Shown piece by piece: positions 40,282 to 57,360 of a DNA stretch of 64,000 nt; position 1 is the stretch's first letter; each line of letters begins with the position of its first letter. Under the pieces are notes generated by a model. The model was not told the origin of the DNA. It was given only the letters and a program-made list of their open reading frames with translations, and did not search any database. This DNA comes from Streptomyces sp. NBC_01210 (lineage in GTDB: Bacteria > Actinomycetota > Actinomycetes > Streptomycetales > Streptomycetaceae), in contig NZ_CP108549.1 in NCBI RefSeq assembly GCF_036010325.1, positions 2,170,001 to 2,234,000 of the forward strand. The letters run 5' to 3'. A program made the translations under genes and the position numbers.

Positions 40282-40293
40282 GGACAGATCAGC

Positions 40294-40515
40294 ATGAACA
40301 TCGACTGGGCAGCTCTCGGCTCCGTCTTCGGCGTGAGCCTCGTCGCCACCGTCGCCCTGGTGGGTCTGTTCACCCTGGGCATCGTCGGCCTGACCAAGCA
40401 GGAGTCGGCGGCCGCGCAGGGCGGTTCCGCGACCCTGGCACGCACCGGCGCGTACGCCTGCTTCGCGCTCTGCGCGGCGGCCGTGGCGTACGGGATCTAT
40501 CTGATCGTCATCTGA
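40294..40515 (+). CDS. Small two-helix membrane protein, Pit partner
   Basis: The 73-residue protein has two hydrophobic helices (about 8-32 and 53-72) joined by a short polar loop (TKQESAAAQGGSATLAR). The ATG at 40294 follows the pit stop by 12 bases, so it is co-transcribed. Small proteins of this type follow pit genes in Streptomyces; the function is unknown, possibly stabilising the transporter. Confidence 0.78.
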   Translation: MNIDWAALGSVFGVSLVATVALVGLFTLGIVGLTKQESAAAQGGSATLARTGAYACFALCAAAVAYGIYLIVI

Positions 40516-40560
40516 CGGCACGGTTCACCAGCTTCACGAGCTTCATCAACCGCTTCACAG

Positions 40561-40597
40561 GCCGGGCCGGGCACCCCTTCGGGTGACCCGGCCCGGC
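40561..40597 (+). terminator. Terminator of the pit operon
   Basis: Left arm 40561-40576 pairs with 40581-40597 (bulged A at 40586) around a CTTC loop: 16 bp, very GC-rich, 45 bases past the partner gene's stop. Confidence 0.87.
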
Positions 40598-40714
40598 TCC
40601 TGCGTCGCGGGCGACGTGGCGGTACGGCCCGTTTTCGACACCTGGCGGAAATCCGCCCCACATGTGTGCCCCAACACACTCTTGCATCGCAGGTCAAAGG
40701 CAAGTTGACGGTCG

Positions 40715-40850
40715 TTCTCGCAGCGTGGTGGACTGCCGAAGCCATCTACGGCGGCAGAAGAGGAAGCCGGTGCAAATCCGGCGCGGTCCCGCCACTGTCA
40801 CCGGGGAGCAGTCCCCGGAAGCCAGGAACTCTCACCGCCGGTCACGTCGA
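40715..40850 (+). ncRNA. Adenosylcobalamin riboswitch
   Basis: The B12-box region GAAGCCGGTGCAAATCCGGC (from 40763) and the strongly conserved GCCACTG (40791-40797), followed by GGGGAGCAG and GCCAGGA elements, match the cobalamin riboswitch (RF00174 pattern). Boundaries are approximate. It should bind adenosylcobalamin and lower expression of the cob operon. A short leader ORF and cbiB follow within 110 bases. Confidence 0.88.
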
Positions 40851-40887
40851 ACCAGGGCGCGGACACCCTGAGTGAGGACATATCGCC

Positions 40888-40953
40888 ATGCCCGGCTGCG
40901 GTTCAGTTCCTGCTGTGAGTACGAGGGTCGTTCGAGGCGAAGCGTCGGCCTGA
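40888..40953 (+). CDS. Possible 21-residue leader ORF between riboswitch and cbiB
   Basis: ATG at 40888 opens MPGCGSVPAVSTRVVRGEASA and stops at TGA 40951-40953, 4 bases before the cbiB ATG. A GTGAGGAC stretch lies about 10 bases upstream of the ATG. If real, riboswitch control could act on this ORF and couple to cbiB. Evidence is positional only. Confidence 0.45.
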   Translation: MPGCGSVPAVSTRVVRGEASA

Positions 40954-40957
40954 ACCC

Positions 40958-41923
40958 ATGCGTGCCGACCGTGAATTCGTGTACGGCGCCACCGCCGGCC
41001 TGGCCGGCGACCTGCTGCTCGGCGATCCCCGCCGCGGGCATCCGGTCGCCGCGTTCGGGCGGGCCGCGGGCGCTGTCGAGCATGTCCTGTGGCGTGACCA
41101 CCGTGGCTGGGGCGCACTGCACACCGCCGTGTGCGCCGGAGGCGCCGCGGGTGCCGCCGCGGTTCTCGCGCGCGGTGTACGGGGCCGCGGCCGCGCATCC
41201 GTCGCACTGATCGCCGCGGCCACCTGGGCCGTCGTCGGAGGTACGTCGCTGGGCCGCGAGGCGCGGGCCATCGGCGGCGCGCTCGCCGCCGGTGACGTGG
41301 ACGTGGCGCGGGAGCGCCTGCCGCATCTGTGCGGGCGCGATCCGCAGGCGCTGGACGAGCAGCAGATCGCACGCGCCGTCGTCGAGTCCGTCGCCGAGAA
41401 CACCTCCGACGCCGTGGTGGGCGCGCTGGTCTGGGGCGCCCTCGCGGGCGTGCCGGGTCTGGTGGGGTTCCGTGCCGTCAACACGCTGGACGCGATGGTC
41501 GGGCACAAGTCGTCCAAATACCGGAGGTTCGGCTGGGCCTCGGCGCGGCTCGACGATGTGGCCGGCTGGCCGGGGGCCCGGCTCACCGCGGGACTCGCGG
41601 TACTCGCGGGCGGGGATGCGCGCGGAGCCGTACGGGCCTGGCGGGCCGATGCGAAGAAGCACCCGAGCCCGAACGCGGGCCCGGTGGAGGCTGCGTTCGC
41701 GGGGGCGCTCGGCGTACGCCTGGGCGGGACCCTCTCGTACGGCGGCCGGGTGGAGCACCGTCCCGTACTCAACGGCACCGGGCGCCCGGTGGAGTTCGGC
41801 GACATCGAACGCGCCGTACGGCTCTCGCGGCGCGTCGGCTGGCTGACACTGGCGACCTGCGCGGCGGGCCGCCTGGCAGGTCACGCACTGCGCGCGCGGC
41901 GCGCGGAAAAGGGGCGGGGATGA
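40958..41923 (+). CDS. cobD: Adenosylcobinamide-phosphate synthase CbiB/CobD
   Basis: The 321-residue membrane protein attaches aminopropanol to cobyric acid. Recognisable segments: [66 protein letters not shown], and [26 protein letters not shown]. Several hydrophobic helices are present. It is first after the riboswitch and its stop overlaps cobQ by 4 bases. Confidence 0.93.
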
Positions 41924-43500
41924 GCAGGCGCAGAGGCGGCGGGCTGCTGGTGGCGGGGACCACGTCCGACGCGGGCAAGAGCGTCGTCACGGCCGGGATC
42001 TGCCGATGGCTGGTGCGGCGGGGAGTGAAGGTCGCGCCCTTCAAGGGGCAGAACATGTCCCTCAATTCGTTCGTGACGCGCGAGGGCGCGGAGATCGGCC
42101 GGGCGCAGGCCATGCAGGCGCAGGCCGCGCGCGTGGAGCCGAGCGCGCTGATGAATCCCGTGCTGCTCAAGCCGGGCAGCGACCGGTCGAGCCAGGTGGT
42201 CCTGATGGGTAAACCGGTGGGCGAACTGAGCGCCCGCGGGTTCTTCGGGGGGTCTGAGGGGGCGTCCCCCGGGAAAACCCTGCACGGTGGGCGGCAGGAG
42301 GCGCTGCTCGGGACCGTCGTGGAGTGCCTGGAGGAGCTGCGGGGCACGTATGAAGCCGTGATCTGCGAGGGGGCGGGCAGTCCGGCCGAGATCAATCTGC
42401 GGCGTACGGACATTGTGAACATGGGCATCGCGCGAGCGGCACAGCTCCCGGTGCTGGTGGTCGGAGACATCGACCGCGGTGGGGTCTTCGCCTCGTTCTT
42501 CGGGACCACCGCGCTGCTCAGCGCCGAGGATCAGGCGCTGGTCGCCGGATACATCGTCAACAAGTTCCGCGGCGATGTGTCGCTGCTGGAGCCCGGTATC
42601 GAGATGCTGCGCGGGCTGACCGGGCGGCACACGTACGGGATTCTGCCGTACGCCCACGGGCTCGGCATCGACGAGGAGGACGGGCTGCGGGTCTCGCTGC
42701 GCGGCGCGGTACGGGAGTCGGTGGTCGCGCCGCCCGTGGGCGAGGACATACTGCGGGTCGCGGTCTGTGCCGTGCCGCTGATGTCCAACTTCACGGACGT
42801 GGACGCGCTGGCCGCCGAGCCGGGTGTCGTCGTGCGGTTCGTGGACCGGGCCGAGGAACTTGTCGACGCCGACCTGGTGGTCGTGCCGGGAACCCGGGGC
42901 ACGGTCAGGGCCCTGGAGTGGCTCAAGGAGCGCGGGCTGGCCGACGCGCTTGCGCGCCGGGCTGCCGAGGGGCGGCCCGTGCTCGGTGTCTGCGGCGGTT
43001 TCCAGCTCCTCGGCGAGCACATCGAGGACGAGGTCGAGTCGCGGGCGGGCCGTGTCCAGGGGCTTGGACTGCTGCCCGTGCGGGTGCGGTTCGCGCGCGA
43101 GAAGACCCTCGCCCGGCCGGTCGGCGAGGCCCTGGGTGAATGCGTGGAGGGCTACGAGATCCACCACGGCGTCGCCGAAGTACTCGGCGGCGACACGTTC
43201 ATCTCCGATGGCGACGGACACAGCCTGGACGGCTGCCGGGTCGGCGCCGTCCGGGGTACGCACTGGCACGGATCGCTGGAGAGCGACGGCTTCCGCCGGG
43301 CGTTCCTGCGCGACGTCGCCGAGTCCGCGGGCCGGCGGTTCGTGCCCGCGCCCGACACCAGCTTCGGCGCGCTGCGCGAAGAGCAGCTGGACCGCCTCGG
43401 CGACCTCATCGAAGAACACGCGGATACGGATGCGCTGCTGCGGCTCATCGAGTCGGGCGCACCCTCAGGACTTCCCTTCATCGCACCTGGAGCGCCATGA
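41920..43500 (+). CDS. cobQ: Cobyric acid synthase
   Basis: The 526-residue enzyme amidates the b, d, e and g positions of adenosylcobyrinic acid diamide using glutamine and ATP. N-terminal P-loop domain: [15 protein letters not shown], then [13 protein letters not shown] and [25 protein letters not shown]. The C-terminal GATase domain has the catalytic Cys in [12 protein letters not shown] (near residue 357) and a THWHG His. Between SARG and HGGRQ is an extra stretch ([14 protein letters not shown], about residues 107-120) encoded by a GC hairpin; I do not recall it in other members. Overlaps cbiB and cobN by 4 bases. Confidence 0.95.
42246..42280. repeat. Short hairpin repeat inserted in cobQ
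   Basis: The sequence around GGGGG-CGT-CCCCC (42258-42270), flanked by GGTCTGA and GGGAAAACC, has the appearance of a dispersed Streptomyces hairpin repeat. It adds about 13 codons to cobQ in frame. Confidence 0.5.
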
Positions 43501-46500
43501 GCACCGAGAGCACCGTGCTGTTGCTGTCCACCGCCGATACGGATCTGCTGGCGGCCCGGGCCTCCGGCGCGCCCTACCGCATCGGCAATCCGACCCGTAT
43601 CGATGTGGCGGAGGAGCTGCCCGCGCTCATCGCGGGCGCATCCGTCGCGGTCGTACGGCTGCTCGGCGGGAAGCGGGCCTGGGAGGACGGGCTCGCGGCC
43701 CTCAAGGCGTCCGGGATTCCGACCGTGCTGCTGGGCGGCGAGGCGGTGCCCGACGCGGAGTTGATGGCCGAGTCGTCCGTGCACGCGGGTGCTGTCGCGG
43801 AGGCCCTGCAGTATCTCGTCGAGGGCGGGCCCGGGAACCTCGTCGAGCTGTCCCGGTTCCTGACGGAGGACGTGCTGCTGGCCGGTCACGGTCGTGCCGC
43901 GGACGCGCAGGACAGGCACAGTGCCGAGCCGCAGAAGATGCCGGAGTGGGGCGTGCACGGCGCGCGTGCGTATGTGGAGGAGCGACCGAGCGTCGGCGTG
44001 CTCTTCTACCGCGCGCACCAGCTCTCCGGCAACACCGGATTCGTCGACACGCTGTGCGACGCGATCGAGGCCCGCGGGTCCAACGCCCTTCCCGTGTACT
44101 GCGGTTCGCTGCGCGGCGCCGACGCCGAGCTGTACGAGCTGCTCGCCAGGACCGATGCGCTGGTCGCCACGGTGCTGGCCGCGGGCGGCACGCGGGCGAG
44201 TGACGCCAGTGCCGGCGGGGACGACGAGGCCTGGGACATCGGCGCGCTCGCCGAGCTCAATGTGCCGGTGCTGCAGGGACTGTGCCTGACCTCGTCGAAG
44301 GCCACCTGGGAGGCGTCGGACGCGGCCCTGTCCCCCATGGACGCGGCGATGCAGGTGGCGATCCCCGAGTTCGACGGGCGGATCATCACGGTCCCGTTCT
44401 CCTTCAAGGAGCAGGGCCCCGACGACGTGCCGGTGTATGTCGCCGATCCGGAGCGCGCCGGACGCGTCGCCGGAATCGCCGTACGCCACGCCCGGTTGAA
44501 GCACAAGCCGAACGCCGAGAAGAAGCTCGCGCTCGTCTTCACCGCCTACCCGACCAAGCATTCACGGGTCGGCAACGCCGTCGGTCTCGACACCCCGGCG
44601 TCCGCCGTGCGGGTGCTGGACGCGCTGCGCGACGCCGGTTACGCCGTGGAGGGCTACCCCGACAACGGCGACGAGCTGATCCACCGGCTGATCAACGCCG
44701 GTGGTCACGATGTGGAGTGGCTGACCGAGGAGCAACTGGCCGCCGCCCCCGCGCGCGTGCCGCTCGCCGACTACCGCGCCTGGTTCGACAAGCTGGAGCC
44801 GGACCTGCGCGACGGAATGCTGGAGCACTGGGGCGAGCCGCCGGGCAGCCTGTACGTCGACGGCGACGAGATCGTGCTGGCGTCCCTGCAGTTCGGGAAC
44901 GTCATCGTGATGATCCAGCCGCCGCGCGGCTTCGGCGAGAACCCGATCGCGATCTACCACGACCCCGATATGCCGCCCTCGCACCACTACATGGCGGCGT
45001 ACCGCTGGCTGGACAACAGTTTCGGCGCGGACGCGATCGTGCACATGGGCAAGCACGGCACCATGGAGTGGCTGCCGGGCAAGGGGCTCGGACTGTCGGC
45101 GGGCTGCGGTCCTGACGCGGTGCTCGGCGAACTGCCGCTGGTGTACCCGTTCATCGTCAACGACCCGGGCGAGGGCACCCAGGCCAAGCGCCGCGGTCAC
45201 GCCACCGTCGTGGACCATCTGGTGCCGCCGATGGCGCGTGCCGACACCTACGGCGACCTGGCCAAGCTGGAGCAGCTGCTCGACGAGTACGCGCTCGTCA
45301 GCGATCTCGACCCGACGAAGGCCCCGGCCGTACGGGCGCAGATCTGGACGCTGGTGAAGGCCGCGGAGCTGCACCACGACCTGCATGTCGACGAGCAGCC
45401 GGACGACGGCGAGTTCGACTCGTTCGTCATGCACATCGACGGCTATCTCTGCGAGATCAAGGACGTCCAGATCAGGGACGGTCTGCACATCCTGGGCGGC
45501 GGCCCGGAGGCCGAGGCCCGGGTCAATCTCGTACTGGCCGTGCTGCGCGCCTCTCAGGTGTGGGGCGGCACGGCGAACGCGCTGCCGGGCCTTCGGGCTT
45601 GTCTCGCCGAGCACTTCGGTCTGGTGGAGAAGGAGCTGCTCGGCGAGCCGGGTGCGCCGGTGAAGGTGCCGGTGGAGCTCACGGAGCTGGTCGAGGGCCC
45701 CGCACGGACCGGCGCCGACGCGATCGATCTGCTGGAGCAGCTGTGCCGACGGCTCGCGGAGGGCATGGAGGAGCGCGGGTGGGAGGTGTCCGCCGCTGCC
45801 GGTCTGGTGGCTGAGGTGCTGGGCACCGCTGCGCCTTCCGGGGTGACACCCCCTGGACCCATCTGCCCGGACGCGGTGGCCGTGCTGGGCTTCGCCTGCG
45901 CGGAGGTCGTGCCGCGGCTGGCCCGTACGACGGACGAGATCGACCATATTCTGCTGGCGCTGGACGGCGGATACGTACCGGCCGGTCCTTCCGGGTCACC
46001 GACGCGCGGTCTGGTGAATGTGCTGCCGACCGGCCGCAACTTCTACTCCGTCGACCCCAAGGCGATTCCGTCCCGGCTGTCGTGGGAGGTAGGCCAGGCG
46101 CTGGCCGACTCGCTCGTGGCCCGGTATCTCACGGACACGGGTGAGTACCCCAAGTCGGTGGGTCTGACGGTGTGGGGCACATCCGCGATGCGCACCCAGG
46201 GCGACGACATCGCCGAGATCCTGGCGCTGCTGGGCTGCCGGCCGGTCTGGGACGACGCGTCGCGGCGGGTCACCGGCTTCGAGGTGGTGCCGGTCGCGGA
46301 GCTTGGCCGTCCGCGCATCGATGTGACGGTGCGCATCTCCGGCTTCTTCCGGGACGCCTTCCCGCATGTGGTGGGGCTGATCGACGACGCGGTACGGGCG
46401 GTGGCGGAGCTGGACGAGCCGGCCGAGTCCAACTACGTACGGGCGCATGCCGACGAGGACACCGCCGAGCACGGCGACCGGCGGCGCGCCACGGCCCGGA

Positions 46501-47216
46501 TCTTCGGCTCGAAGCCGGGTGCCTATGGTGCGGGGCTGCTGCCGCTGATCGACGCGCGGAACTGGCGCAGCGACGCCGACCTGGCCGAGGTGTACGCGGT
46601 GTGGGGCGGTTATGCGTACGGGCGCGGGCTCGAAGGGCGGGCGGCGCGCGGGGACATGGAGACGGCGTTCCGGCGGATCGCGGTCGCGGCGAAGAATGTC
46701 GACACCAGGGAGCACGACCTCGTCGACGCCGACGATTACTTCCAGTACCACGGCGGGATGGTCGCGATGGTGCGGCATCTGACCGGTGAGTCGCCCGAGG
46801 CGTATGTGGGTGACAGCGCCACACCGGACCAGGTGAAGACGCGCACGCTGGGTGAGGAGACGCACCGGGTGTTCCGGGCGCGGGTGGTCAATCCGCGCTG
46901 GATGGCGGCGATGCGGCGGCACGGCTACAAGGGCGCGTTCGAGATGGCCGCGACGGTGGACTACCTGTTCGGGTACGACGCCACGGCGGGTGTCGTGGAT
47001 GACTGGATGTACGAGAAGCTCTCCGCGGAGTACGTCTTCGACCCCGAGAACCGCGCGTTCATGGAGAAGTCGAACCCGTGGGCGCTGCGGGGCATCACGG
47101 AGCGGTTGCTGGAGGCGGCGGACCGGGGGCTGTGGGCGGAGCCGGACGCGGAGACGCTGGAGCGGCTGCGGGCGACGTATCTGGAGCTCGAGGGTGATTT
47201 GGAGGGGGACGCGTGA
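43497..47216 (+). CDS. cobN: Cobaltochelatase subunit CobN
   Basis: The 1239-residue large subunit inserts cobalt into hydrogenobyrinic acid a,c-diamide in the late ('aerobic') pathway, with ATP hydrolysed by the helper subunits. CobN/BchH motifs include [62 protein letters not shown] and, near the C-terminus, [24 protein letters not shown] at 43497 overlaps the cobQ stop. It is followed, after a repeat element, by a fused ChlI-ChlD gene that likely supplies the AAA+ and VWA helper functions. Confidence 0.96.
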
Positions 47217-47229
47217 GGACGCCTGCCAG

Positions 47230-47326
47230 CTGCTGGGGCTCCGCCCCGGACCCCGCGCCTCAAACGCCGGCGAGGCTTGATTCGGACCGAAGCCCCCTGG
47301 TTACGGGAAGGGGCGGGGTGGGGCAA
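47230..47326. repeat. Dispersed hairpin repeat between cobN and chlID
   Basis: GGGGCTCCGCCCCGG (47235) and GCCTCAAACGCCGGCGAGGC, followed by CCCTGGTTACGGGAAGGGGCGGGG, closely match in both order and sequence the reverse complement of part of the element inside cobB. This is a Streptomyces-type intergenic inverted repeat. Confidence 0.78.
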
Positions 47327-47358
47327 TCTCCCCGCCTCAACACGATCGAGGAGTCCGC

Positions 47359-49371
47359 ATGAGCACCCCATACCCCTTCACCGCGATCGTCGGCATGGAC
47401 GACCTGCGGCTCGGGCTGCTGCTGAATGCCGTCTCCCCCGCCGTGGGCGGTGTGCTCGTGCGCGGTGAGAAGGGGACCGCCAAGTCGACCGCCGTACGTG
47501 CGCTTTCCGCGTTGATCCCGGAGGTTCCGGTCGTCTCCGGGTGCCGGTTCTCGTGCGACCCCGCGTCGCCGGACCCGGCGTGTCCCGACGGTCCCCACGA
47601 GCTCGGCGGCGGTGTGGCGCGCCCGGCGCGGATGGTCGAGCTGCCCGTCGGCGCGTCCGAGGACCGGCTCGTCGGTGCCCTCGACATCGAGCGGGCGCTG
47701 GCCGAGGGTGTGAAGGCCTTCGAGCCGGGGCTGCTCGCGGACGCGCACCGCGGGATTCTCTACGTGGATGAGGTCAACCTCCTCCACGACCACCTCGTCG
47801 ACCTGCTGCTTGACGCGGCCGCCATGGGCGCTTCGTACGTCGAGCGTGAAGGCGTGTCGGTGCGGCACGCCGCCCGTTTCCTGCTCGTGGGGACCATGAA
47901 CCCCGAAGAGGGCGAGTTGCGGCCTCAATTGCTGGACCGCTTCGGGCTCACCGTCGAGGTCGCGGCCTCGCGGGAGCCCGATCAGCGGGTGGAGGTCGTG
48001 CGGCGGCGGCTCGCGTACGACGACGATCCGGCCGGTTTCGCCGCTCGCTGGGCGGACGAGGAGTCGGCCCTGCGGGCCCGGATCGTGGCCGCGCGGGCGC
48101 TGCTGCCCGACGTCCGGCTGGGGGACGGCGCGTTGCGGCAGATCGCCGCGACCTGTGCGGCCTTCGAGGTGGACGGGATGCGCGCCGACATCGTGATGGC
48201 CCGTACCGCAACCGCGCTCGCCGCGTGGGCGGGGCGTACGGAGGTGCTCGCCGAGGATGTACGGCAGGCCGCTCTGCTGGCGCTCCCCCACCGGCGGCGG
48301 CGCAATCCCTTCGACGCCCCCGGCCTCGACGAGAACAAGCTCGACGAGACCTTGGAGGATTTCGGCGACGACGATCCGGAACTCGATCCGGACCCCGATC
48401 CGGACGGGCCGGGCGGGGGCGGGCAGCCGCCGCAGGGCGGGCCCGAGGTGCCGCCGCAGGGCGATGGCGGACAGGGCGAAGTGCCCGCGCAGGCGGAGCC
48501 GGCCGAGGGTGGTACTCCGCAGGCCGGCGGCGGTGAGCAGCAGCCCGTAGGGGCCGCCGAGCCGTTCCGTACGAAGATGCTGAGCGTGCCGGGTCTCGGC
48601 GAGGGCGCGGCGGGGCGCAGGTCCCGTGCGCGGACCGAGCACGGCCGGACGACGGGTGCGCGGCGGCCCCAAGGGGCGCTCACCAAGCTGCACTTGGCGG
48701 CGACCATGCAGGCCGCGGCCCCGCACCAGCGGGCGCGCGGGCGCAGCGGCCGGGGTCTGGTGGTCCGCCGGGACGATCTGCGGCAGGCGAACCGCGAGGG
48801 ACGCGAGGGGAACCTGGTGCTCTTCGTGGTGGACGCGTCGGGTTCGATGGCGGCCCGGCAGCGGATGAGCGCGGTGAAGGGTGCGGTGCTTTCGCTGCTG
48901 CTCGACGCCTACCAGCGGCGCGACAAGGTCGGGCTGATCACCTTCCGCGGGAAGGACGCGGAGGTGGCGCTGCCGCCGACCTCGTCGGTGGACGCGGCCG
49001 CCGCTCGTCTTCAGACGCTGCCGACGGGCGGTCGTACGCCGCTGGCGGCCGGGCTACTCAAGGCGCACGACGTGCTGCGGGTGGAGCGTATGCGCGATCC
49101 TTCGCGCCGGCCGCTGCTGGTCGTGGTGACGGACGGCCGGGCGACGGGCGGGGTCGATCCGGTGGCGCTGGCGTCGCGTGCGGCGCGGCTGCACTCCGCC
49201 GAAGGGACCGCCGCGATCGTCGTGGACTGCGAGTCCGGGCCCGTACGGCTCGGTCTCTCGAGCACACTGGCCGTCGATCTCGGCGGCACCGCCGTCACCC
49301 TCGACGAGCTGCGCGCCGACTCCATCGCCGGGCTTGTCAGGGACGTTCAGACTGCAAGGAGGGCCGCGTAA
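47359..49371 (+). CDS. Fused ChlI-ChlD chelatase helper (AAA+ and VWA)
   Basis: The 670-residue fusion has a ChlI/BchI AAA+ domain (Walker A GEKGTAKS, 36-43; Walker B ILYVDEVNLL; GTMNPEEGELRPQLLDRFGL), a Pro/Gln/Gly-rich linker (about 345-400), and a VWA domain with MIDAS motif DASGSM near 491 and TDGRATGG. CobS/CobT genes are not in this cluster, so this protein probably provides the ATPase/VWA partners of CobN. ATG at 47359; overlaps cobO (TAATG). Confidence 0.93.
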   Translation: MSTPYPFTAIVGMDDLRLGLLLNAVSPAVGGVLVRGEKGTAKSTAVRALSALIPEVPVVSGCRFSCDPASPDPACPDGPHELGGGVARPARMVELPVGASEDRLVGALDIERALAEGVKAFEPGLLADAHRGILYVDEVNLLHDHLVDLLLDAAAMGASYVEREGVSVRHAARFLLVGTMNPEEGELRPQLLDRFGLTVEVAASREPDQRVEVVRRRLAYDDDPAGFAARWADEESALRARIVAARALLPDVRLGDGALRQIAATCAAFEVDGMRADIVMARTATALAAWAGRTEVLAEDVRQAALLALPHRRRRNPFDAPGLDENKLDETLEDFGDDDPELDPDPDPDGPGGGGQPPQGGPEVPPQGDGGQGEVPAQAEPAEGGTPQAGGGEQQPVGAAEPFRTKMLSVPGLGEGAAGRRSRARTEHGRTTGARRPQGALTKLHLAATMQAAAPHQRARGRSGRGLVVRRDDLRQANREGREGNLVLFVVDASGSMAARQRMSAVKGAVLSLLLDAYQRRDKVGLITFRGKDAEVALPPTSSVDAAAARLQTLPTGGRTPLAAGLLKAHDVLRVERMRDPSRRPLLVVVTDGRATGGVDPVALASRAARLHSAEGTAAIVVDCESGPVRLGLSSTLAVDLGGTAVTLDELRADSIAGLVRDVQTARRAA

Positions 49372-49970
49372 TGCCGCAAGGACAGCCGTCCGTCGTACCG
49401 GACGACGGACTCACCACCCGCCAGCGCCGCAACCGCCCGCTCGTCGTCGTCCACACGGGCATCGGCAAGGGCAAGTCGACGGCCGCGTTCGGGCTCGCGC
49501 TGCGCGCCTGGAACCAGGGGTGGCCGATCGGGGTGTTCCAGTTCGTCAAATCCGCGAAGTGGAAGGTCGGCGAGGAGAACGCGCTGAAGGTCCTCGGTGC
49601 CTCCGGCGAGGGCGGTCCTGTCGACTGGCACAAGATGGGCGAGGGCTGGTCGTGGGTGCAGCGCGACAAGCAGCTGAACAACGAGGAGGCGGCGCGCGAG
49701 GGCTGGGAGCAGGTCAAGCGCGATCTGGCGGCCGAGACGTATCAGCTGTATGTGCTGGATGAGTTCGCGTACCCGATGCACTGGGGATGGGTGGACACGG
49801 ACGAGGTGATCTCGGTGCTCCGGGACCGGCCGGGGACGCAGCATGTGGTGATCACCGGCCGCAACGCTCCGGCGGAGCTCGTCGGGTTCGCCGATCTGGT
49901 GACCGACATGTCCAAGGTCAAGCACCCGATGGACACCGGTCAGAAGGGGCAGCGGGGCATCGAGTGGTAG
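49371..49970 (+). CDS. cobO: Cob(I)yrinic acid a,c-diamide adenosyltransferase
   Basis: The 199-residue CobA/CobO/BtuR-type enzyme adenosylates the corrinoid cobalt with ATP. P-loop HTGIGKGKSTAAFG (about 22-35) and the family segments GVFQFVKSAKWKVGEENAL and YVLDEFAYPMHWGWVDTDEV are present. ATG at 49371 overlaps the TAA of chlID, and the 3' end overlaps cobB. Confidence 0.95.
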   Translation: MPQGQPSVVPDDGLTTRQRRNRPLVVVHTGIGKGKSTAAFGLALRAWNQGWPIGVFQFVKSAKWKVGEENALKVLGASGEGGPVDWHKMGEGWSWVQRDKQLNNEEAAREGWEQVKRDLAAETYQLYVLDEFAYPMHWGWVDTDEVISVLRDRPGTQHVVITGRNAPAELVGFADLVTDMSKVKHPMDTGQKGQRGIEW

Positions 49971-51484
49971 CACGTCTCGTCATCGCCGCGCCGTCTTCCG
50001 GCAGCGGCAAGACCACCGTCGCGACGGGCCTGATGGCGGCCTTCGTCGCGGCGGGCCTCTCCGTGTCCCCGCACAAGGTCGGCCCCGACTACATCGACCC
50101 GGGCTATCACTCGCTCGCCACGGGACGCCCGGGGCGGAATCTGGACGCGTATCTGTGCGGTACGGAGCTGATCGCGCCGCTGTTCGCGCATGGCGCGGCG
50201 GGCTGCGATCTGGCCGTGGTCGAAGGCGTGATGGGGCTGTACGACGGGGCGGCGGGAGCCGGTGAGCTGGCGTCCACCGCTCAGGTCGCGAAGCTGCTGC
50301 GGGCGCCGGTGGTGCTGGTGGTGGACGCGTCCTCGCAGTCGCGGTCGGTGGCGGCGCTGGTGCACGGTTTCGCGTCCTGGGATCCACAGGTGCGGATCGG
50401 GGGCGTGATTCTGAACAAGGTGGGGTCCAAGCGGCACGAGGAGCTGCTGCGGGAGGCGCTGGACGAGTCGGGGGTGCCGGTGCTGGGGGTGTTGCGGCGG
50501 GTGGCTGACGTCGCGTCGCCGTCGCGGCACCTGGGTCTTGTGCCGGTCGCGGAGAGGCGGGCGGACGCGGTGGCCGCGGTGGCGGCGATGGCGGAGGTGG
50601 TGCGGGCGGGGTGCGATCTGGAGGCGCTGCTCGCGCTTGCGCGGAGCGCGCCTGCGTTGCCGGACGCGCCGTGGGACCCGGGGGTCGCCTCCGGCGGGCT
50701 TGTTCCCCACCCCGCCCCTTCCCGTAGCTGGGGGCTCCGCCCCCAGACCCCCGCGCCTCAATCGCCGGAGGGGCTTGATTGTGCGGCCCGGCCGACATTT
50801 TCAGCCTCGCCGGCGTTTGAGGCGCGGGATCCGGGGCGGAGCCCCGGTTACGGGAAGGGGCGGGTAGGGGAACAGCGCCGCGGGCCACTCCTCGTCGCCG
50901 TCGCCGGCGGGCCCGCGTTCACGTTCTCCTATGCCGAGCACACCGAGCTGCTCGCCGCCGCCGGCGCGGAGGTCGTCACGTTCGACCCGCTCCGGGACGA
51001 GCAACTGCCCGACGGGACACGGGGGCTCGTCATAGGTGGCGGCTTTCCCGAGGTGTACGCGCCCGAGCTGTCCGCCAACGACGCGCTGCGCAAAGCCGTC
51101 GCCGAGCTGGCACACTCCGGCGCGCCGGTCGCCGCCGAGTGCGCCGGGCTGCTGTATCTCACACGCGCCCTGGACGGAATGCCGATGTGCGGTGTCCTGG
51201 ACGCCGAGGCGCGGATGTCGCAGCGGCTCACACTCGGCTACCGGGAGGCTGTCGCGGTGAGCGACAGCGTTCTCGCGGCGGCCGGGACACGGCTGCATGG
51301 GCACGAGTTCCACCGCACGGTCATCGAGCCGGCCGCAGGGCCCGGCCCCGCGTGGGGGATGCACCTGCCCGGGCGGCGCGTGGAGGGATTCGTGCAACAC
51401 GGCGTACATGCGAGCTATCTGCATACGCACTGGGCGGCCACGCCCAGCACGGCACGCAGATTCATTGAAAGGTGCGGGGCATGA
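49964..51484 (+). CDS. cobB: Cobyrinic/hydrogenobyrinic acid a,c-diamide synthase with internal repeat insert
   Basis: The 506-residue enzyme amidates the a and c acetate side chains. N-terminal domain: P-loop APSSGSGKTTVATGL and VGPDYIDPGYHSL; C-terminal GATase domain: GGGFPEVYAPELSAN, AAECAGLLYL (catalytic Cys) and a terminal SYLHTHWAATP. Between the two, residues about 247-303 (HPAPSRSWGLRPQTPAPQSP and onward) are encoded by a 170-bp inverted-repeat element that keeps the frame open. Normal CobB proteins are shorter by about this amount. GTG at 49964 overlaps cobO. Confidence 0.93.
   Translation: MVARLVIAAPSSGSGKTTVATGLMAAFVAAGLSVSPHKVGPDYIDPGYHSLATGRPGRNLDAYLCGTELIAPLFAHGAAGCDLAVVEGVMGLYDGAAGAGELASTAQVAKLLRAPVVLVVDASSQSRSVAALVHGFASWDPQVRIGGVILNKVGSKRHEELLREALDESGVPVLGVLRRVADVASPSRHLGLVPVAERRADAVAAVAAMAEVVRAGCDLEALLALARSAPALPDAPWDPGVASGGLVPHPAPSRSWGLRPQTPAPQSPEGLDCAARPTFSASPAFEARDPGRSPGYGKGRVGEQRRGPLLVAVAGGPAFTFSYAEHTELLAAAGAEVVTFDPLRDEQLPDGTRGLVIGGGFPEVYAPELSANDALRKAVAELAHSGAPVAAECAGLLYLTRALDGMPMCGVLDAEARMSQRLTLGYREAVAVSDSVLAAAGTRLHGHEFHRTVIEPAAGPGPAWGMHLPGRRVEGFVQHGVHASYLHTHWAATPSTARRFIERCGA
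50703..50872. repeat. Large inverted-repeat element inside cobB
   Basis: Arms 50703-50744 and about 50831-50872 match nearly perfectly in reverse complement (for example CCGCCCCTTCCCGTA with TACGGGAAGGGGCGG), and the internal GCCTCAATCGCCGG / CCGGCGTTTGAGGC pair extends the hairpin. It resembles the 47230-47326 copy. It reads through in the cobB frame. Confidence 0.88.
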
Positions 51485-52230
51485 GCAGCAGGCTGATCGG
51501 TGTCGGAGTCGGGCCCGGCGACCCGGAGTTGGTGACCGTGAAGGGCGTACGCGCGCTTCGTGAGGCCGATGCCGTCGTCGTACCTGTGATGGCCGGATCC
51601 GACGGAACAGATGGGGGTGAGCCCGGGCGCGCCGAGGCGACCGTCCTGCACTACGTGGGCGCGGAGAAGGTCGTACGCGTCGTCTTCGCGCTCAACGAGC
51701 GCACCGACCGTGGCCGTCGCGAGGCCGCCTGGGACGCCGCGGGCAAGCGTGTCGCCGAGCTGCTGCGCGCGCACGGGTCCGTCGCCTTCGCGACGATCGG
51801 CGATCCCAATGTGTACTCGACGTTCACCTATCTCGCACAGACCATCGCCGAACTGGTCCCGGGTACCGCCGTGGAGACCGTGCCCGGCATCACCGCCATG
51901 CAGGATCTGGCGGCCCGCAGCGGCGCCGTCCTCACCGAGGGCACCGAGCCGCTGACCCTGGTGCCGGTGACCGCTGGGGCCGCCGTGCTCAAGGACGCCC
52001 TGAAGGGACCCGGCACGGTCGTCGCCTACAAGTTCGGGCGGCTCGCCGCGGAGGTGGCCGTCGCACTGCGCGAGACGGGACGTACCGAGGGCGCGGTGTG
52101 GGGGTCGGCGCTCGGGCTGCCCGAGGAGTCGATCCGGCCGGCCGCGGAGCTTGCCGAGGGAGCGCTGCCGTACCTCTCGACGCTGATCGCGCCGGCGCCG
52201 CGCGACGGTGGCCGCGGAGGCAAGCTGTGA
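51481..52230 (+). CDS. cobI: Precorrin-2 C20-methyltransferase
   Basis: The 249-residue SAM-dependent methyltransferase has the tetrapyrrole-methylase fold: VGVGPGDPELVTVKGVRAL (17-residue P-loop-like start), the conserved ATIGDPNVYSTFTYLAQTI, and VETVPGITAMQDLAAR. It methylates precorrin-2 at C20. ATG at 51481 overlaps the cobB stop. A ZIP gene on the opposite strand separates it from cobM. Confidence 0.95.
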   Translation: MSSRLIGVGVGPGDPELVTVKGVRALREADAVVVPVMAGSDGTDGGEPGRAEATVLHYVGAEKVVRVVFALNERTDRGRREAAWDAAGKRVAELLRAHGSVAFATIGDPNVYSTFTYLAQTIAELVPGTAVETVPGITAMQDLAARSGAVLTEGTEPLTLVPVTAGAAVLKDALKGPGTVVAYKFGRLAAEVAVALRETGRTEGAVWGSALGLPEESIRPAAELAEGALPYLSTLIAPAPRDGGRGGKL

Positions 52231-52273
52231 GTTCACCGCTCTCCTCGCTCGGCGGGCCGTTCAGCGGGTCGTT

Positions 52274-52297
52274 CGGCAAGTCACTCGGCAAGTCACT
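52274..52297. repeat. 12-bp direct repeat at the cobI/ZIP junction
   Basis: CGGCAAGTCACT occurs twice in tandem (52274-52285, 52286-52297) and overlaps the 3' end of the ZIP gene. Confidence 0.7.
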
Positions 52298-53018
52298 CGG
52301 CGAGGCCGACCAGCAACCAGATGAAGCCCACGCCTCCCGCCGTGCACAGCAGGGTGGAGCGGGCGGGGTGGGTGTGGTGTGCCTCGGGGAGGATCTCGGC
52401 CGCGGCGAGATAGAGCAGGACGCCGCCGAAGAAGCCGAGATAGCTGCCCAGAAGTTCGGCCGGAATCGTGAACAGCAGCGTGGACGCCGCGCCGACGATC
52501 GGAGCGAGTGCGTCCGCGACGAGCATCGCGATCGCCTTTCTCCGCGTGTTCCCGTACAGGCTGGTGATCGTGTACGTGTTGAAGCCGTCCGCGAAGTCAT
52601 GGGCGATGACGGCGAGCGCCACGGCCGCGCCCATACCGCCGCCCACCTGGAACGCAGCGCCGATGGCGACTCCGTCCATCAGGCTGTGGCCGACCATCGC
52701 CGCGGCCGCCGTCAGCCCCACCTGGGGCACCCTCTCGTCCTCGTCCGCGCCGTGCGCCGCCTGCCGGACGGCCAGCAGCCGTTCCACCAGGTGCGCCGCC
52801 AGGAAGCCGCCGACGAAGAGCAGCAGCCCCTGCGGCACCCCGAACACCTTGTTACCGGCCGCCTCCAGTGCCTCCGGCAGCAGGTCAAGGCCGACCACGC
52901 CGAGCATCAGCCCGCCGGCCAGGCCCAGTACGAGGTGGCGGCGGTCGGTGACGCGTTGCGCCGTCCACCCGCCGAACAGCGTCATCAGGAACGCGCCGAG
53001 CGCGACGAACACCGCCAT
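52293..53018 (-). CDS. ZIP family divalent-metal transporter
   Basis: The 241-residue protein has eight hydrophobic segments and the ZIP binuclear-site motifs HSLMDGVAIGAAF (helix 4) and HDFADGFNTYT (helix 5). ZIP proteins import Zn, Fe, Co or related ions. It sits on the opposite strand between cobI and cobM, so it splits the cob operon. Cobalt supply for CbiX/CobN is an attractive but unproven role. ATG at 53018. Confidence 0.9.
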   Translation of the reverse strand: MAVFVALGAFLMTLFGGWTAQRVTDRRHLVLGLAGGLMLGVVGLDLLPEALEAAGNKVFGVPQGLLLFVGGFLAAHLVERLLAVRQAAHGADEDERVPQVGLTAAAAMVGHSLMDGVAIGAAFQVGGGMGAAVALAVIAHDFADGFNTYTITSLYGNTRRKAIAMLVADALAPIVGAASTLLFTIPAELLGSYLGFFGGVLLYLAAAEILPEAHHTHPARSTLLCTAGGVGFIWLLVGLAE

Positions 53019-53109
53019 GCGCCCTTGCTAGCGGATTGACCCGTCTCTTCGCACCCTTCCGATCGAGATCCGCCCGAATCACCCGAATGACCCGAGAGGA
53101 CCCCCGCTC

Positions 53110-53931
53110 ATGGCCGATGCCGCCACCCACGGCAAGGTGACCTTTGTCGGCGCCGGCCCTGGCGCCGCCGATCTGCTGACGTTCCGCGCCGCGCGTGCCA
53201 TCGCCGACGCCGACATCGTCATCTGGGCGGCGAGCCTGGTGCAGGCCGACGTCCTTGACCACGCCCGCGAGGGCGCCGAGATCCTCGACTCGGCGGCCAT
53301 GTCACTGGAGGACGTCGTCTCCGTGTACGAGCGGGCGCTCGACGAGGGCCTGCGGGTCGCCAGGATCCACTCCGGCGACCCCGCCCTGTGGGGCGGCACG
53401 CAGGAGCAGCTCGACCGGTGTGTGGACCTCGGCCTGGAGGTCGAGATCGTGCCGGGCGTCTCGTCGTTCTCGGCCGTCGCCGCGATCGCTCAGCGCGAGC
53501 TGACGATCCCGGAGGTCGCGCAGTCCGTGATCCTGACCCGGCTCGGCGGCGGCAAGACACCGATGCCGCCGGGCGAGGAGGTACGGGAGTTCGCGCGGCA
53601 CGGCACGACGATGGCGCTCTTCCTGTCGGCGGCGCGCTCGGGCCAGTTGACGCAGGAGCTGCTGGAGGGCGGCTATCCGACGAGCACGCCGGTGGTCATC
53701 GCGTACCAGGCGACCTGGCCGGAGGAGCTGATCCTGCGCTGCACGATCGGCACGCTGGAGGAGACGGTCAAGGAGCACAAGCTCTGGAAGCACACGCTGT
53801 TCCTGGTCGGTCCGGCGCTGGCGGCTTCCGGGACGCGCTCGCATCTGTACCACCCGGGGCACTTCCACGGCTTCCGGAAGGCCGACCCGGCCGCCCGCAA
53901 GGCGCTGCGCGCGCAGGGCGCGACGCCATGA
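53110..53931 (+). CDS. cobM: Precorrin-4 C11-methyltransferase
   Basis: The 273-residue SAM-dependent methylase has VTFVGAGPGAADLLTFRAARAI, the conserved HSGDPALWGGTQEQLDR segment and IVPGVSSFSAVAAIAQRELTIPEV. It methylates precorrin-4 at C11. ATG at 53110 is preceded by GAGAGGACCCCC. Because the ZIP gene lies before it, it probably has its own promoter in the divergent gap 53019-53109. Confidence 0.95.
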   Translation: MADAATHGKVTFVGAGPGAADLLTFRAARAIADADIVIWAASLVQADVLDHAREGAEILDSAAMSLEDVVSVYERALDEGLRVARIHSGDPALWGGTQEQLDRCVDLGLEVEIVPGVSSFSAVAAIAQRELTIPEVAQSVILTRLGGGKTPMPPGEEVREFARHGTTMALFLSAARSGQLTQELLEGGYPTSTPVVIAYQATWPEELILRCTIGTLEETVKEHKLWKHTLFLVGPALAASGTRSHLYHPGHFHGFRKADPAARKALRAQGATP

Positions 53932-55193
53932 TCACGGTCATCGGTACGGGGACGGGCGCGCCGCTCTCCGTACGCGACGCCGAGGCGCTCGCCGCGGCCA
54001 CGCTGGTGGTGGGTGCCCGGCGGCATCTGACGTCGGCGTGCCGTGCGGCCGATGTGCCCGCCGACGCGCAACAGCTGGTGCTGGGGCCGCTCGCGCCGGC
54101 GCTCGACGTGATCGGGAAGAAGCTGGCCTGCGGCGCGGCCGGGGTGGTGGTGCTGGCCTCGGGCGACCCCGGATTCTTCGGGATCGTACGGGCGTTGGCC
54201 GAGCGGTTCGGCGCCGACGCGCTGGACGTACGGCCGGGGGCGCCGTCGGTGGCGGTCGCCTTCGCGCGGATCGGGCTGCCGTGGGACGACGCGGTTGTCG
54301 TCAGTGCGCACGGCCGTGATCTGCGGACCGCGGTCAATGTGTGCCGTGCGCATCCCAAGACTGCTGTGCTGACCGGTCCCGGCTCGGGGCCCGCGGAGCT
54401 GGGCGCCGAGCTGGCGTACCGGGCCGCGGAGCGGACGCTGGTGGTGGCGACGGCGCTCGGCGACCCGGAGCACGAGCGGATCGAGCGGATGTCGCCCGCG
54501 GAGGCGGCGGCGCGTACGTGGGACGCGGTGAGCGTGGTGCTCTGCCTGGACGAGCGGCGGGCGCTGTCGCCGGCGCAGCGGACGGTCTCGGTGCCCATCG
54601 GTCCGGACCGGTGGGCGCTGTCCGAGGGAGAGTTCGAGCACCGCGACTCGATGATCACCAAGTTCGAGGTACGGGCGCTGGCGCTGGCGCGCCTCGGGCC
54701 GCGTACAGGCGATCTCGTGTGGGACATCGGCGCGGGGTCCGGTTCGGTGGCAGTGGAGTGCGCGCGGTTCGGCGCGGCCGTGGTGGCCGTGGAGAAGACC
54801 CCCGACGGCGTGGAGCGGATCCGCGTGAACGCGGCCGCGCACGGTGTGGACGTACGGGCCGTGCACGGCGCGGCACCGACGGTGCTCTCCCATCTGGCGG
54901 ACCCTGACGCGGTGTTCATCGGCGGGGGCGGCGCGGAGCTGCCCGCGATCGTCACCGCGTGCGCGCGGCGGGCCCGGCGCACGGTGGTCGTCGCGCTGGC
55001 CGCGCTGGACCGGGTGGCTGCGGTACGCGGCGCGCTGGCCGCCGCCGGGTTCGTGTCCGAGGGCGTACTGCTGCACTCGTCACGGCTGGCCCCGCTGCCC
55101 GGAGATGTGACACGGCTGGCGTCCGCCAACCCCGTATTCCTGCTGTGGGGCGACCGCCCCGCGGATTCGGTGAACGAAGGAGCAATTCAGTGA
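53928..55193 (+). CDS. cobL: Precorrin-6Y C5,15-methyltransferase/decarboxylase (CbiE-CbiT fusion)
   Basis: The 421-residue fusion has an N-terminal tetrapyrrole methylase (CbiE; VVLASGDPGFFGIVRAL) and a C-terminal CbiT domain from about residue 235 with the SAM-binding WDIGAGSGSVAVECAR and FIGGGG. It methylates C5 and C15 and decarboxylates the C12 acetate. ATG at 53928 overlaps the cobM stop. Confidence 0.95.
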   Translation: MITVIGTGTGAPLSVRDAEALAAATLVVGARRHLTSACRAADVPADAQQLVLGPLAPALDVIGKKLACGAAGVVVLASGDPGFFGIVRALAERFGADALDVRPGAPSVAVAFARIGLPWDDAVVVSAHGRDLRTAVNVCRAHPKTAVLTGPGSGPAELGAELAYRAAERTLVVATALGDPEHERIERMSPAEAAARTWDAVSVVLCLDERRALSPAQRTVSVPIGPDRWALSEGEFEHRDSMITKFEVRALALARLGPRTGDLVWDIGAGSGSVAVECARFGAAVVAVEKTPDGVERIRVNAAAHGVDVRAVHGAAPTVLSHLADPDAVFIGGGGAELPAIVTACARRARRTVVVALAALDRVAAVRGALAAAGFVSEGVLLHSSRLAPLPGDVTRLASANPVFLLWGDRPADSVNEGAIQ

Positions 55194-56887
55194 TCGGCCT
55201 GATCTCCGCGACGGCGGCGGGCGCCGCCGCCCGCGACCGGCTGGCCGCGGCCTGGCCCGGCCGCACCCGGGTGTACGAGGGCCCGGTGCGCGAGTCGGTG
55301 GAGCGCGCGTTCGCGGAGTGCGAGCAGCTGGTGTGCTTCCTGGCGACGGGCGCGGTGGTACGGCTGATCGCCCCGCTGCTCGCGGACAAGTCGGCGGACC
55401 CGGGCGTGGTGTGCGTGGACGAGGGGCAGCGGTTCGCGGTGTCGCTGCTGGGCGGCCACGACGGCGGCGCGAACGAGCTGGCGGCGGAGGTCGCGGACGT
55501 CCTGGGCTGCACCCCGGTGGTGACGACGGCGACGGACGCGACGGACATCCCTGGTCTGGACACGCTGGGCCTGCCGGTGGAGGGCGCGGTCGCGGCGGTG
55601 ACGCGGGCGGTGCTGGACGGCGAGCCGGTGGCGCTGCGGGCGGACGCGGTGTGGGCGTTGCCGCCGCTGCCGCCGAATGTGGGTGCCGACGTGACTGCTG
55701 ACGGTGCCGCCGTCCTCCGGGTGACCGACCGGCTCGTCGAACCGGGCGCACAGGAAGCCGTGTTGCGGCCCGCGTCGCTCGTCGTCGGGGTCGGAGCGTC
55801 CAAGGGTGCTCCCGTCGAGGAGGTGCTCGGGCTCGTCGAGGAGTCGCTGCGTGACGCCGGGCTCTCCGTACTGAGCGTCGTGGCGCTGGCGACGGTCGAC
55901 GCGAAGGCGGAGGAGCCCGGGATCGTCGGGGCCGCGGAGCGGCTCGGAGTGCCGGTCGTCACGTACGCGGCGGAGGAACTCTCCTCGGTCACCGTGCCGA
56001 ACCCGTCCGACGCGCCGCTCGCCGCCGTGGGGACGCCGTCGGTCGCTGAGGCCGCCGCGCTCGTGGGCGGCGGCGAACTCCTGGTCCCGAAGCGGAAGTC
56101 GAGCCCCGGGGGGCGTGCGGCGATGGCGACCTGCGCGATCGTGCGCAGGCCGCCGCGCGGCCGGCTGGCCGTGGTCGGGCTCGGGCCCGGGGCCCGCGAT
56201 CTGGTCACCCCGCGCGCCACCGAGGAACTGCGGCGGGCCTCCGTACTGGTCGGGCTCGATCAGTACGTCGACCAGATCCGCGACCTGCTCAGGCCCGGCA
56301 CGCGTGTGATCGAGTCCGGCCTCGGGGCGGAGGAGGAACGGGCCCGTACGGCTGTCGCCGAGGCCCGCGCCGGGCATGCGGTCGCGCTGATCGGGAGCGG
56401 TGACGCGGGTGTGTACGCGATGGCCTCGCCCGCGCTCGCCGAGGCGTCCGACGACATCGACGTGGTCGGCGTACCGGGCGTGACCGCGGCGCTCGCGGCA
56501 GCCGCGATCCTGGGGGCGCCGCTCGGGCACGACCATGTCTCGATCAGCCTGTCAGATCTGCACACGCCGTGGGAGATCATCGAACGCCGGGTGCGGGCCG
56601 CCGCGGAGGCGGACATCATCGTCACCTTCTACAACCCGCGCAGTCGCGGCCGCGACTGGCAGCTCCCGAAGGCGCTGACGATCCTCGCCGGGCACCGGGA
56701 GCCGGGGACGCCGGTGGGTGTCGTGCGCAACGCGTCGCGCGTGGACGAATCCAGCCGCGTGACGACTCTCGCCGGACTGGATCCGGCGACGGTGGACATG
56801 ATGACGGTCGTGACGGTCGGCAACACGGCCACGCGCGAGATCGCGGGCCGCATGGTGACGCCGCGCGGCTACCGGTGGCAGTCGTGA
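55190..56887 (+). CDS. cobJ: Fused CbiG and CobJ (precorrin-3B C17-methyltransferase)
   Basis: The 565-residue fusion begins with a CbiG domain (VCFLATGAVVRLIAPLL; SLLGGHDGGANELAAEVADVL; C-terminal VGVGASKGAPVEEVLGLV). A CobJ/CbiH methylase follows from about residue 325 (LAVVGLGPGARDLVTPRATEEL; LIGSGDAGVYAMASPALAEA; DIIVTFYNPRSRGRDWQLPKAL). CobJ drives ring contraction at C17; CbiG opens the lactone in the cobalt-first route. GTG at 55190 overlaps the cobL stop, with AAGGAG upstream. Confidence 0.94.
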   Translation: MIGLISATAAGAAARDRLAAAWPGRTRVYEGPVRESVERAFAECEQLVCFLATGAVVRLIAPLLADKSADPGVVCVDEGQRFAVSLLGGHDGGANELAAEVADVLGCTPVVTTATDATDIPGLDTLGLPVEGAVAAVTRAVLDGEPVALRADAVWALPPLPPNVGADVTADGAAVLRVTDRLVEPGAQEAVLRPASLVVGVGASKGAPVEEVLGLVEESLRDAGLSVLSVVALATVDAKAEEPGIVGAAERLGVPVVTYAAEELSSVTVPNPSDAPLAAVGTPSVAEAAALVGGGELLVPKRKSSPGGRAAMATCAIVRRPPRGRLAVVGLGPGARDLVTPRATEELRRASVLVGLDQYVDQIRDLLRPGTRVIESGLGAEEERARTAVAEARAGHAVALIGSGDAGVYAMASPALAEASDDIDVVGVPGVTAALAAAAILGAPLGHDHVSISLSDLHTPWEIIERRVRAAAEADIIVTFYNPRSRGRDWQLPKALTILAGHREPGTPVGVVRNASRVDESSRVTTLAGLDPATVDMMTVVTVGNTATREIAGRMVTPRGYRWQS

Positions 56888-57360
56888 GGGCCCGCGGCGA
56901 CGCGCTCGCGGTCGTGGGGGCGTGCGGGGCGCGTGTGGTGTGCCCCGGCAGCGAAGCGGCCGCCGACTGGGCACCCCACCACGCGGGCACGGGCACGGGC
57001 GCAGCCCAGGCCACGGGCACGGGCACGGGCGCAGCCCAGGCCACGGGCACGGGCGCGGGCGCAGCCCAGGCCACGGGCACGGGCGCGGGCGCAGCCCAGG
57101 CCACGGGCACGGGCGCGGGCGCAGATGCTGACGCAAGCGCAGCCCAGGGCACGGGCACGGGCGCAGCCCAGGCCACGGGCGCAAGCGCGGGCGCAGATGC
57201 TGACGCAGGCGCAGCCCAGGGCACGGGCGCAGCCCCAGGCACGGACCACCCCGGCCGACGCATGTCGCACCCCGGCAGCGCCCAGGCCTGCCCCCCATCG
57301 CCGGCGACAGTCGGCACCGCACCCGTCACCCACCGCCGCCACTCCGGAGTCGCCTCGTGA
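56884..57360 (+). CDS. Low-complexity ORF between cobJ and cobH
   Basis: The 158-residue ORF overlaps cobJ (GTGA at 56884) and cobH (GTGA at 57357), so both ends fit the coupled operon. The first 33 residues (RARGDALAVVGACGARVVCP) look like a normal start; from there AAQATGTG(T/A)G repeats four times, then decays into ADADA and AAQGTG variants. I do not recognise a family. It may be a decayed or rapidly expanding cob-associated protein, or a spacer that keeps coupling. Confidence 0.5.
   Translation: MRARGDALAVVGACGARVVCPGSEAAADWAPHHAGTGTGAAQATGTGTGAAQATGTGAGAAQATGTGAGAAQATGTGAGADADASAAQGTGTGAAQATGASAGADADAGAAQGTGAAPGTDHPGRRMSHPGSAQACPPSPATVGTAPVTHRRHSGVAS
56990..57235. repeat. 30-bp tandem repeat in the cobJ-cobH ORF
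   Basis: Four consecutive copies of a 30-bp unit (GCAGCCCAGGCCACGGGCAC plus ten bases) are followed by degenerate copies with GATGCTGACGCA inserts. The G/C strand bias is high. Expansion by slippage is likely. Confidence 0.85.

Follow-up and report, generated by a model that had tools for sequence, protein, structure and literature searches.

A dispersed palindromic repeat in frame within the interdomain linker of CobB in Streptomyces

The best-known examples of in-frame palindromes within protein genes are those of Rickettsia. The Rickettsia palindromic elements (RPEs), as described in PMC10969869, are dispersed palindromes of ~150 bp found in frame within unrelated protein genes, each coding for a conserved peptide. 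The element analysed here, from the genome of Streptomyces sp. NBC_01210, is also a palindrome of about 150 bp with many dispersed copies, and it lies in frame in several unrelated genes as delimited by our own gene caller (cobB, L012, L177, L181 and the L020 junction). On the other hand, host and base composition differ from those of the RPEs, 74 of 81 distinct copies are outside genes, one orthologous linker is matched in 47 of the 146 ORFs examined, and the peptide encoded varies, 36 ORFs having the core in frame 0 and 6 in frame 1. Since no conserved peptide is encoded, we do not class the element as an RPE, the likeness being one of description. By this analogy, the best reading would be a Streptomyces counterpart of the RPEs. 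We think it likely that a dispersed palindrome of this genus is translated as a probably disordered linker of CobB and is tolerated since the linker is unconstrained. This would place a Rickettsia-like kind of event in a GC-rich actinobacterium. One orthologous linker comparable across more than 100 species forms a natural series, bearing on how non-coding repeats become protein, on frame keeping and on the cost or use of a hairpin inside an ORF.

Other known repeats share part of these features. As in REP/BIME sequences, dispersed palindromes occur outside genes at 3' ends, but the present copies can attain some 190 bp or even exceed this length, and the genome is devoid of Y1_Tnp, the domain of REP-associated transposases. 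The search for this domain (PF01797) gave 0 matches in this genome while being positive in 5 of 14 control genomes, and a REP driven by a RAYT/Y1 transposase was rejected on this basis. The short length, the lack of an own gene and the 23-nt terminal inverted repeats (0 and 2 mismatches) are reminiscent of MITEs. However, a target duplication was not identified, a near-identical empty site being absent from the comparison set, and a search that covered Y1_Tnp alone identified no parent transposon or mobilising enzyme. Among the open-licence titles listed, none reports palindromes translated within Streptomyces genes, which is weak evidence of absence; subscription papers mostly fall outside this literature. 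Streptomyces transcripts often end with stable hairpins containing few U, according to PMC12207403 and PMC8269248. Such U-poor (I-shaped) terminators have in common with our element the stable GC-rich hairpin and, for the family, the location at gene 3' ends, a bias that they would suit; the cobB copy, however, is inside an ORF and not at a 3' end.

The palindrome within cobB

The window, which is the whole stretch of DNA analysed (64,000 nt), contains cobB with the following features, the start codon (GTG, 49964) having been assigned in the present analysis.

49964..51484, + strand: cobB, cobyrinic/hydrogenobyrinic acid a,c-diamide synthase, 506 aa (translation, NCBIfam, Pfam)
49976..50533, + strand: CbiA nucleotide-binding domain, residues 5-190 (Pfam PF01656)
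50699..50878, + strand: translated insert, residues 246-305, predicted disordered (AlphaFold2 pLDDT < 50)
50701..50874, no strand assigned: palindromic dispersed element, ~174 bp (nhmmer bounds in the window; hairpin fold)
50702..50724, + strand: left terminal arm, 23-mer, exact (own-genome pattern search)
50759..50778, + strand: inner-stem core, 5' copy (pattern match, 0 mismatches)
50777..50802, + strand: central loop (at ≤3 mismatches, one match here and one in Streptomyces sp. ISL-1)
50800..50819, - strand: inner-stem core, 3' copy (pattern match, 1 mismatch)
50851..50873, - strand: right terminal arm, same 23-mer, 2 mismatches (own-genome pattern search)
50894..51439, + strand: GATase_3 amidotransferase domain, residues 311-492 (Pfam PF07685)

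The product was assigned to CobB for having both the CbiA and GATase_3 domains and a score of 514 bits with the NCBIfam equivalog model NF002204 (cut-off 254). Two weak matches to amidotransferases were obtained by sequence search of the PDB, and the first 50 rows of a fold search contained CTP synthases and amidotransferases (GatD, PdxT and HisH types), as expected for the two domains of CobB. The Pfam limits of these domains place the element between them, as the earlier note had proposed, and the linker role suggested there agrees with this position and with the predicted disorder. In the AlphaFold2 model (38 CobB sequences), mean pLDDT is 80 and both domains are mostly above 80, residues 246-305 being the single long stretch below 50. 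Shorter stretches of low pLDDT are outside the insert (residues 43-46, 94-96 and 184-197).

The inverted repeat described in the earlier note at 50703-50872 does exist, with an RNA fold of 50690-50885 reaching an MFE of -170.1 kcal/mol. None of 200 dinucleotide shuffles reaches this value (mean -104.4, sd 4.9; z -13.3). Its "near-perfect long arms" hold when minor bulges and mismatches are tolerated, but not strictly, as the gap-free arm pairs are 81% (50691-50733/50842-50884), 79% (50731-50754/50822-50845) and 88% (50750-50775/50803-50828) complementary. No Rfam match was found within 46000-53000 of the window at E≤1, and reading of the sequence reveals no T-run beyond the right arm of the element in cobB. 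The reading frame is open from the GTG at 49964 up to the stop codon, whose last base is 51484, confirming that the element is read in frame, and cobB's own frame is the single fully open one among the three forward frames across the element. CobB is presumably made at full length.

Sequencing is error-prone in long GC-rich hairpins, and broken cobB frames were found in two relatives. In L139 (G070) the frame is broken by one TGA at or near the linker, and in L220 (G007) the N-terminal frame stops in the element region with the C-terminal domain in another frame. Insertion may thus do harm in some cases, unless the two assemblies are in error. For the window, an assembly artefact or chance is hardly credible. 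The cobB of the independent Streptomyces sp. ISL-1 genome (L031) contains an insert with the same central loop and a likewise open frame, which makes a sequencing frameshift in the window's cobB unlikely, and an artefact is also contradicted by the fold z-score and by the absence of matches in 730 shuffled controls (see below).

Dispersal in the genome and copies in other genes

In the 9.2-Mb genome, the inner-stem pattern gave 152 matches against 8 for the reversed control, and the 23-nt terminal arm was found in 52 places at ≤3 mismatches against 0 for its reversed control. At least 81 distinct copies were recovered by profile from 105 own loci, many of them overlapping, plus the window, counting among the pattern matches listed (100 of the 152 inner-stem matches); 6 of the 105 loci have no profile copy. 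Gene overlap was classified with a simple codon-usage gene caller, inspected on window positions 40001-56000 alone, a copy being considered outside genes when overlapping a gene by less than 60%. By this measure, 74 of the 81 copies are outside genes and 7 overlap a gene, in line with the earlier view of a dispersed, mostly intergenic element. The genes flanking these 74 copies are convergent in 42 cases, tandem in 30 and divergent in 2, compared with 3 convergent, 17 tandem and 9 divergent among the window gaps without the element (Fisher p 1.6e-5 for convergent and 1.4e-4 for divergent). The convergent excess and divergent deficit locate the family at gene 3' ends. Intergenic copies have 2.9 of 6 frames open, against 4.0 for length-matched segments drawn at random from the window, which indicates that keeping a frame costs something. 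Stop-poverty as the cause of tolerance was rejected for the same reason.

One intergenic copy is near cobB, between genes for which we keep the names of the earlier note (cobN and chlID) as they stand.

47223..47323, no strand assigned: intergenic copy between the genes called cobN and chlID (pairwise alignment, nhmmer)

This reverse-complement copy, already pointed out from the sequence, is present as two matching blocks, 47222-47277 versus 50803-50858 (88%) and 47294-47323 versus 50705-50734 (90%). It sits at the same place in ISL-1, where it is 67% alike against 90% for its flanks, so copies change or turn over in place. Also in the window, a tract of GC-rich tandem repeats (period lengths 6 to 72 nt) occupies 56984-57228, downstream of the cobalamin genes.

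Besides cobB, copies overlap further genes of the same genome. The seven gene-overlapping copies, according to our gene caller, are that of cobB and the six below, whose gene identities come from reading of translations alone.

L012, double-ATPase ABC protein: copy between its two ATPases
L177, PfkB-type kinase: copy internal to the gene
L181, membrane protein: copy internal to the gene
L020, junction of soxD-like and soxA-like ORFs: copy around 1488-1583
L155 and L180, C-terminal tails of two genes: element copies

At L020, the soxD-like and soxA-like ORFs are fused in frame through the copy around 1488-1583. In the linker of the ABC protein (L012), the element is found in the own genome and in 3 of 19 relatives having the protein (20 genomes searched).

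CobB linkers across relatives

We extracted 150 CobB ORFs, 146 of them distinct: the window's one, 80 from named loci, 30 from the top of a genus search and 39 others, these coming from 40 loci taken in handle order with L220 dropped due to its broken frame. The profile, built from own-genome copies and missing degenerate ones such as L057, matches 47 of the 146 distinct ORFs, always in the linker and never elsewhere in the ORF, while 0 of 730 controls with shuffled linker codons are matched. These 47 do not represent a prevalence, since the named-locus and genus-search sets were picked by best score; by set, matches occur in 23/80 named loci, 20/30 of the genus-search top and 6/39 of the handle-order ORFs. 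Within the series G001-G067, 51 genomes were examined and 14 of them have the element in cobB, frame-broken L220 included, which splits into 7/40 for the handle-order genomes (with L220) and 7/11 for the genus-search top. In 2 genomes of this series the cobB match is absent. The element is thus not confined to a single cobB, a wider finding than that of the earlier note.

The aligned linker stretch varies from 39 to 142 aa across relatives. Among the 146 ORFs, 36 have the inner core in forward frame 0 and 6 in frame 1, with one having both, and none has it in forward frame 2; the reverse core is read in one frame in 9 ORFs, and no core is found outside the linker. One core DNA read in different frames indicates that the recurring thing is DNA and not a single peptide. 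A TGA in the core shutting the third forward frame was considered and withdrawn, because this depends on the bases 3' of the core. It is very improbable that the linker is conserved at the protein level and merely resembles a DNA repeat. Related species do have common peptides, e.g. SSPPPPLPVP, but the reading of the same DNA in two frames contradicts this explanation outright; moreover, many copies are outside genes, and there is no codon-position bias between the own insert and that of ISL-1. A linker shared by all CobB proteins in the absence of the DNA repeat, which the earlier note had named as the finding that would speak against it, does not fit the varying lengths and the different frames either.

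Some linkers present other particularities. In L061, six inner-core copies 39 nt apart form a minisatellite within the coding linker. L246, L049 and L135 have short tandem duplications of the PVVAVAG type at the linker/strand junction, which are another route of linker growth.

Using the L043 linker as query, 21 to 77 matches were obtained in each of the 7 genomes searched of another group (7/7), and the best dispersed copies are 91-95% identical to this linker stretch, with scoring limited to 40 candidates in every genome. When the comparison is restricted to these columns, L043 has 87-98% identity with the cobB elements of six further species: those of L046, L062 and L105 (97-98%) exceed the best dispersed copies, and those of L055, L061 and L096 (87-91%) are under them. 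The idea that cobB elements are nearer to dispersed copies than to each other was withdrawn, as the same columns give three of six each way. The L057 linker is composed of two families (query nt 34-105 and 97-147), found in many places in the four genomes searched, and a second dispersed palindrome family is present in at least one CobB linker.

A CobB tree was built without the linker, leaving out 5 Streptosporangiaceae rows and 4 duplicates. Element presence on this tree demands at least 26 changes (39.6 for shuffled labels), 9 of them forced by starred branches, although 26 is an inflated figure since the profile overlooks degenerate copies such as L057. These changes are unfavourable to one or few ancient insertions at one site, often lost or eroded, as are the differing families in the linker, and the broad patchwork favours renewal. 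On the other hand, an ancient origin is supported by the common start of the element match, 19-49 nt past the first Trp codon of the linker in 36 of 47 ORFs (median 37), by the central loop common to the own genome and ISL-1, and by the high likeness (97-98%) to L043 of the cobB elements from three of the six genomes compared with it. Some linkers of the avidinii group resemble, by eye, different deletions of one element, and the contrary claim of closeness to dispersed copies fell on the same-column comparison. We see the chances of ancient and of repeated insertion as even.

For the mode of arrival, we infer that a dispersed Streptomyces palindromic repeat, mostly located at gene 3' ends, comes to sit in the cobB linker, where ribosomes would read it as a disordered spacer rich in Pro, Gly, Ala and Arg. 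CobB would tolerate the insert because its linker has no fixed sequence or length, with the frame-keeping copies surviving. The linker would then be a tolerant site in the genus, in which repeats subsequently undergo trimming and duplication and in part come to be read in a different frame, and the insert itself is probably neutral or nearly so.

Divergence of the insert and its possible causes

The nearest named relative found is Streptomyces sp. ISL-1. Within its best 30 places, 14 own copies have a flank match and 13 have both flanks aligned. In 12 of these 13 orthologous elements, identity (44-85%) is below that of their own flanks (83-91%), cobB being the sole case with the element (95.4%) above the flanks (87.0%). 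The two cobB inserts differ in 3/52 sites at each codon position, against 34, 18 and 115 of 444 in the flanks, and 4-fold sites differ in 2/35 for the insert and 81/283 for the flanks (p 0.002). Equal codon positions disfavour selection on amino acids, and the slow change disfavours free drift. In the ISL-1 element (L031), the outer right arm is absent and the left arm has 33 bp more, not present in the window copy; a compensatory pattern among the differences is not apparent by eye. At ≤3 mismatches, neither genome contains a second match to the central loop; this segment was therefore not acquired from another locus of the own genome or of ISL-1. Gene conversion as the cause of slow loop divergence was ruled against in this pair.

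The comparison was extended to groups of relatives selected by hand from the tree, in which the same species recur from pair to pair, the pairs being non-independent. Divergence of the cobB insert is below that of flanking third codon positions in four of the six groups. For the canus-type group (25 rows) this occurs in 247 of 279 non-independent pairs, with medians of 14.7% for the insert and 29.0% for flank third positions, and it is also the case in the pairs own/ISL-1, L036/L066 and L040/L117. In the avidinii group the insert is slower in only 3 of 19 pairs, and in the violascens pair (L037/L038) it is not slower. For the 28 closest pairs, which likewise share species, the insert is slower in 6 and faster in 9 at p<0.05, with no difference in the remaining 13. 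A neutral insert should diverge about like synonymous sites, and since slow divergence extends beyond one pair, our confidence in a neutral spacer is slightly lowered. The remaining candidate causes of the slow change are selection on DNA or RNA, homogenisation through dispersed copies, and renewal.

The cobB hairpin could be kept for a role in DNA or RNA, either slowing ribosomes between the domains or acting as a point of mRNA processing or attenuation in the cob operon. In the first variant, slowed ribosomes would let the first CobB domain fold alone. The 4-fold sites of the ISL-1 pair, the position of cobB as the only one of 13 elements more conserved than its flanks, and the slower canus-type inserts are consistent with such a role. 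We nevertheless regard it as quite unlikely: the differences look non-compensatory and the ISL-1 arms have changed, 99 of the 146 CobB ORFs examined have no element match, the avidinii group, the violascens pair and the 28 closest pairs do not follow the pattern, and homogenisation or renewal from the dispersed family predicts the same. A broader proposal, which we consider unlikely as well, is that the CobB linker is a favoured Streptomyces site turning at least two palindrome families into protein, the hairpin then being held by selection on mRNA or DNA, not on the peptide, in several lineages including the window's. There, the hairpin could serve as a translation pause between the two domains.

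Alternatively, the insert may stay family-like by gene conversion or renewal from dispersed copies and not by any need of cobB, which we take as possible, if improbable. The dispersed copies elsewhere that have 91-95% identity with the L043 linker, among 40 scored candidates per genome, suggest that the family itself changes slowly, and the differing families and ends carried by linkers point in the same direction. Against it, neither the own genome nor ISL-1 has a further match to the central loop at ≤3 mismatches, and the cobB elements of L046, L062 and L105 are closer to L043 (97-98%) than the best dispersed copies.
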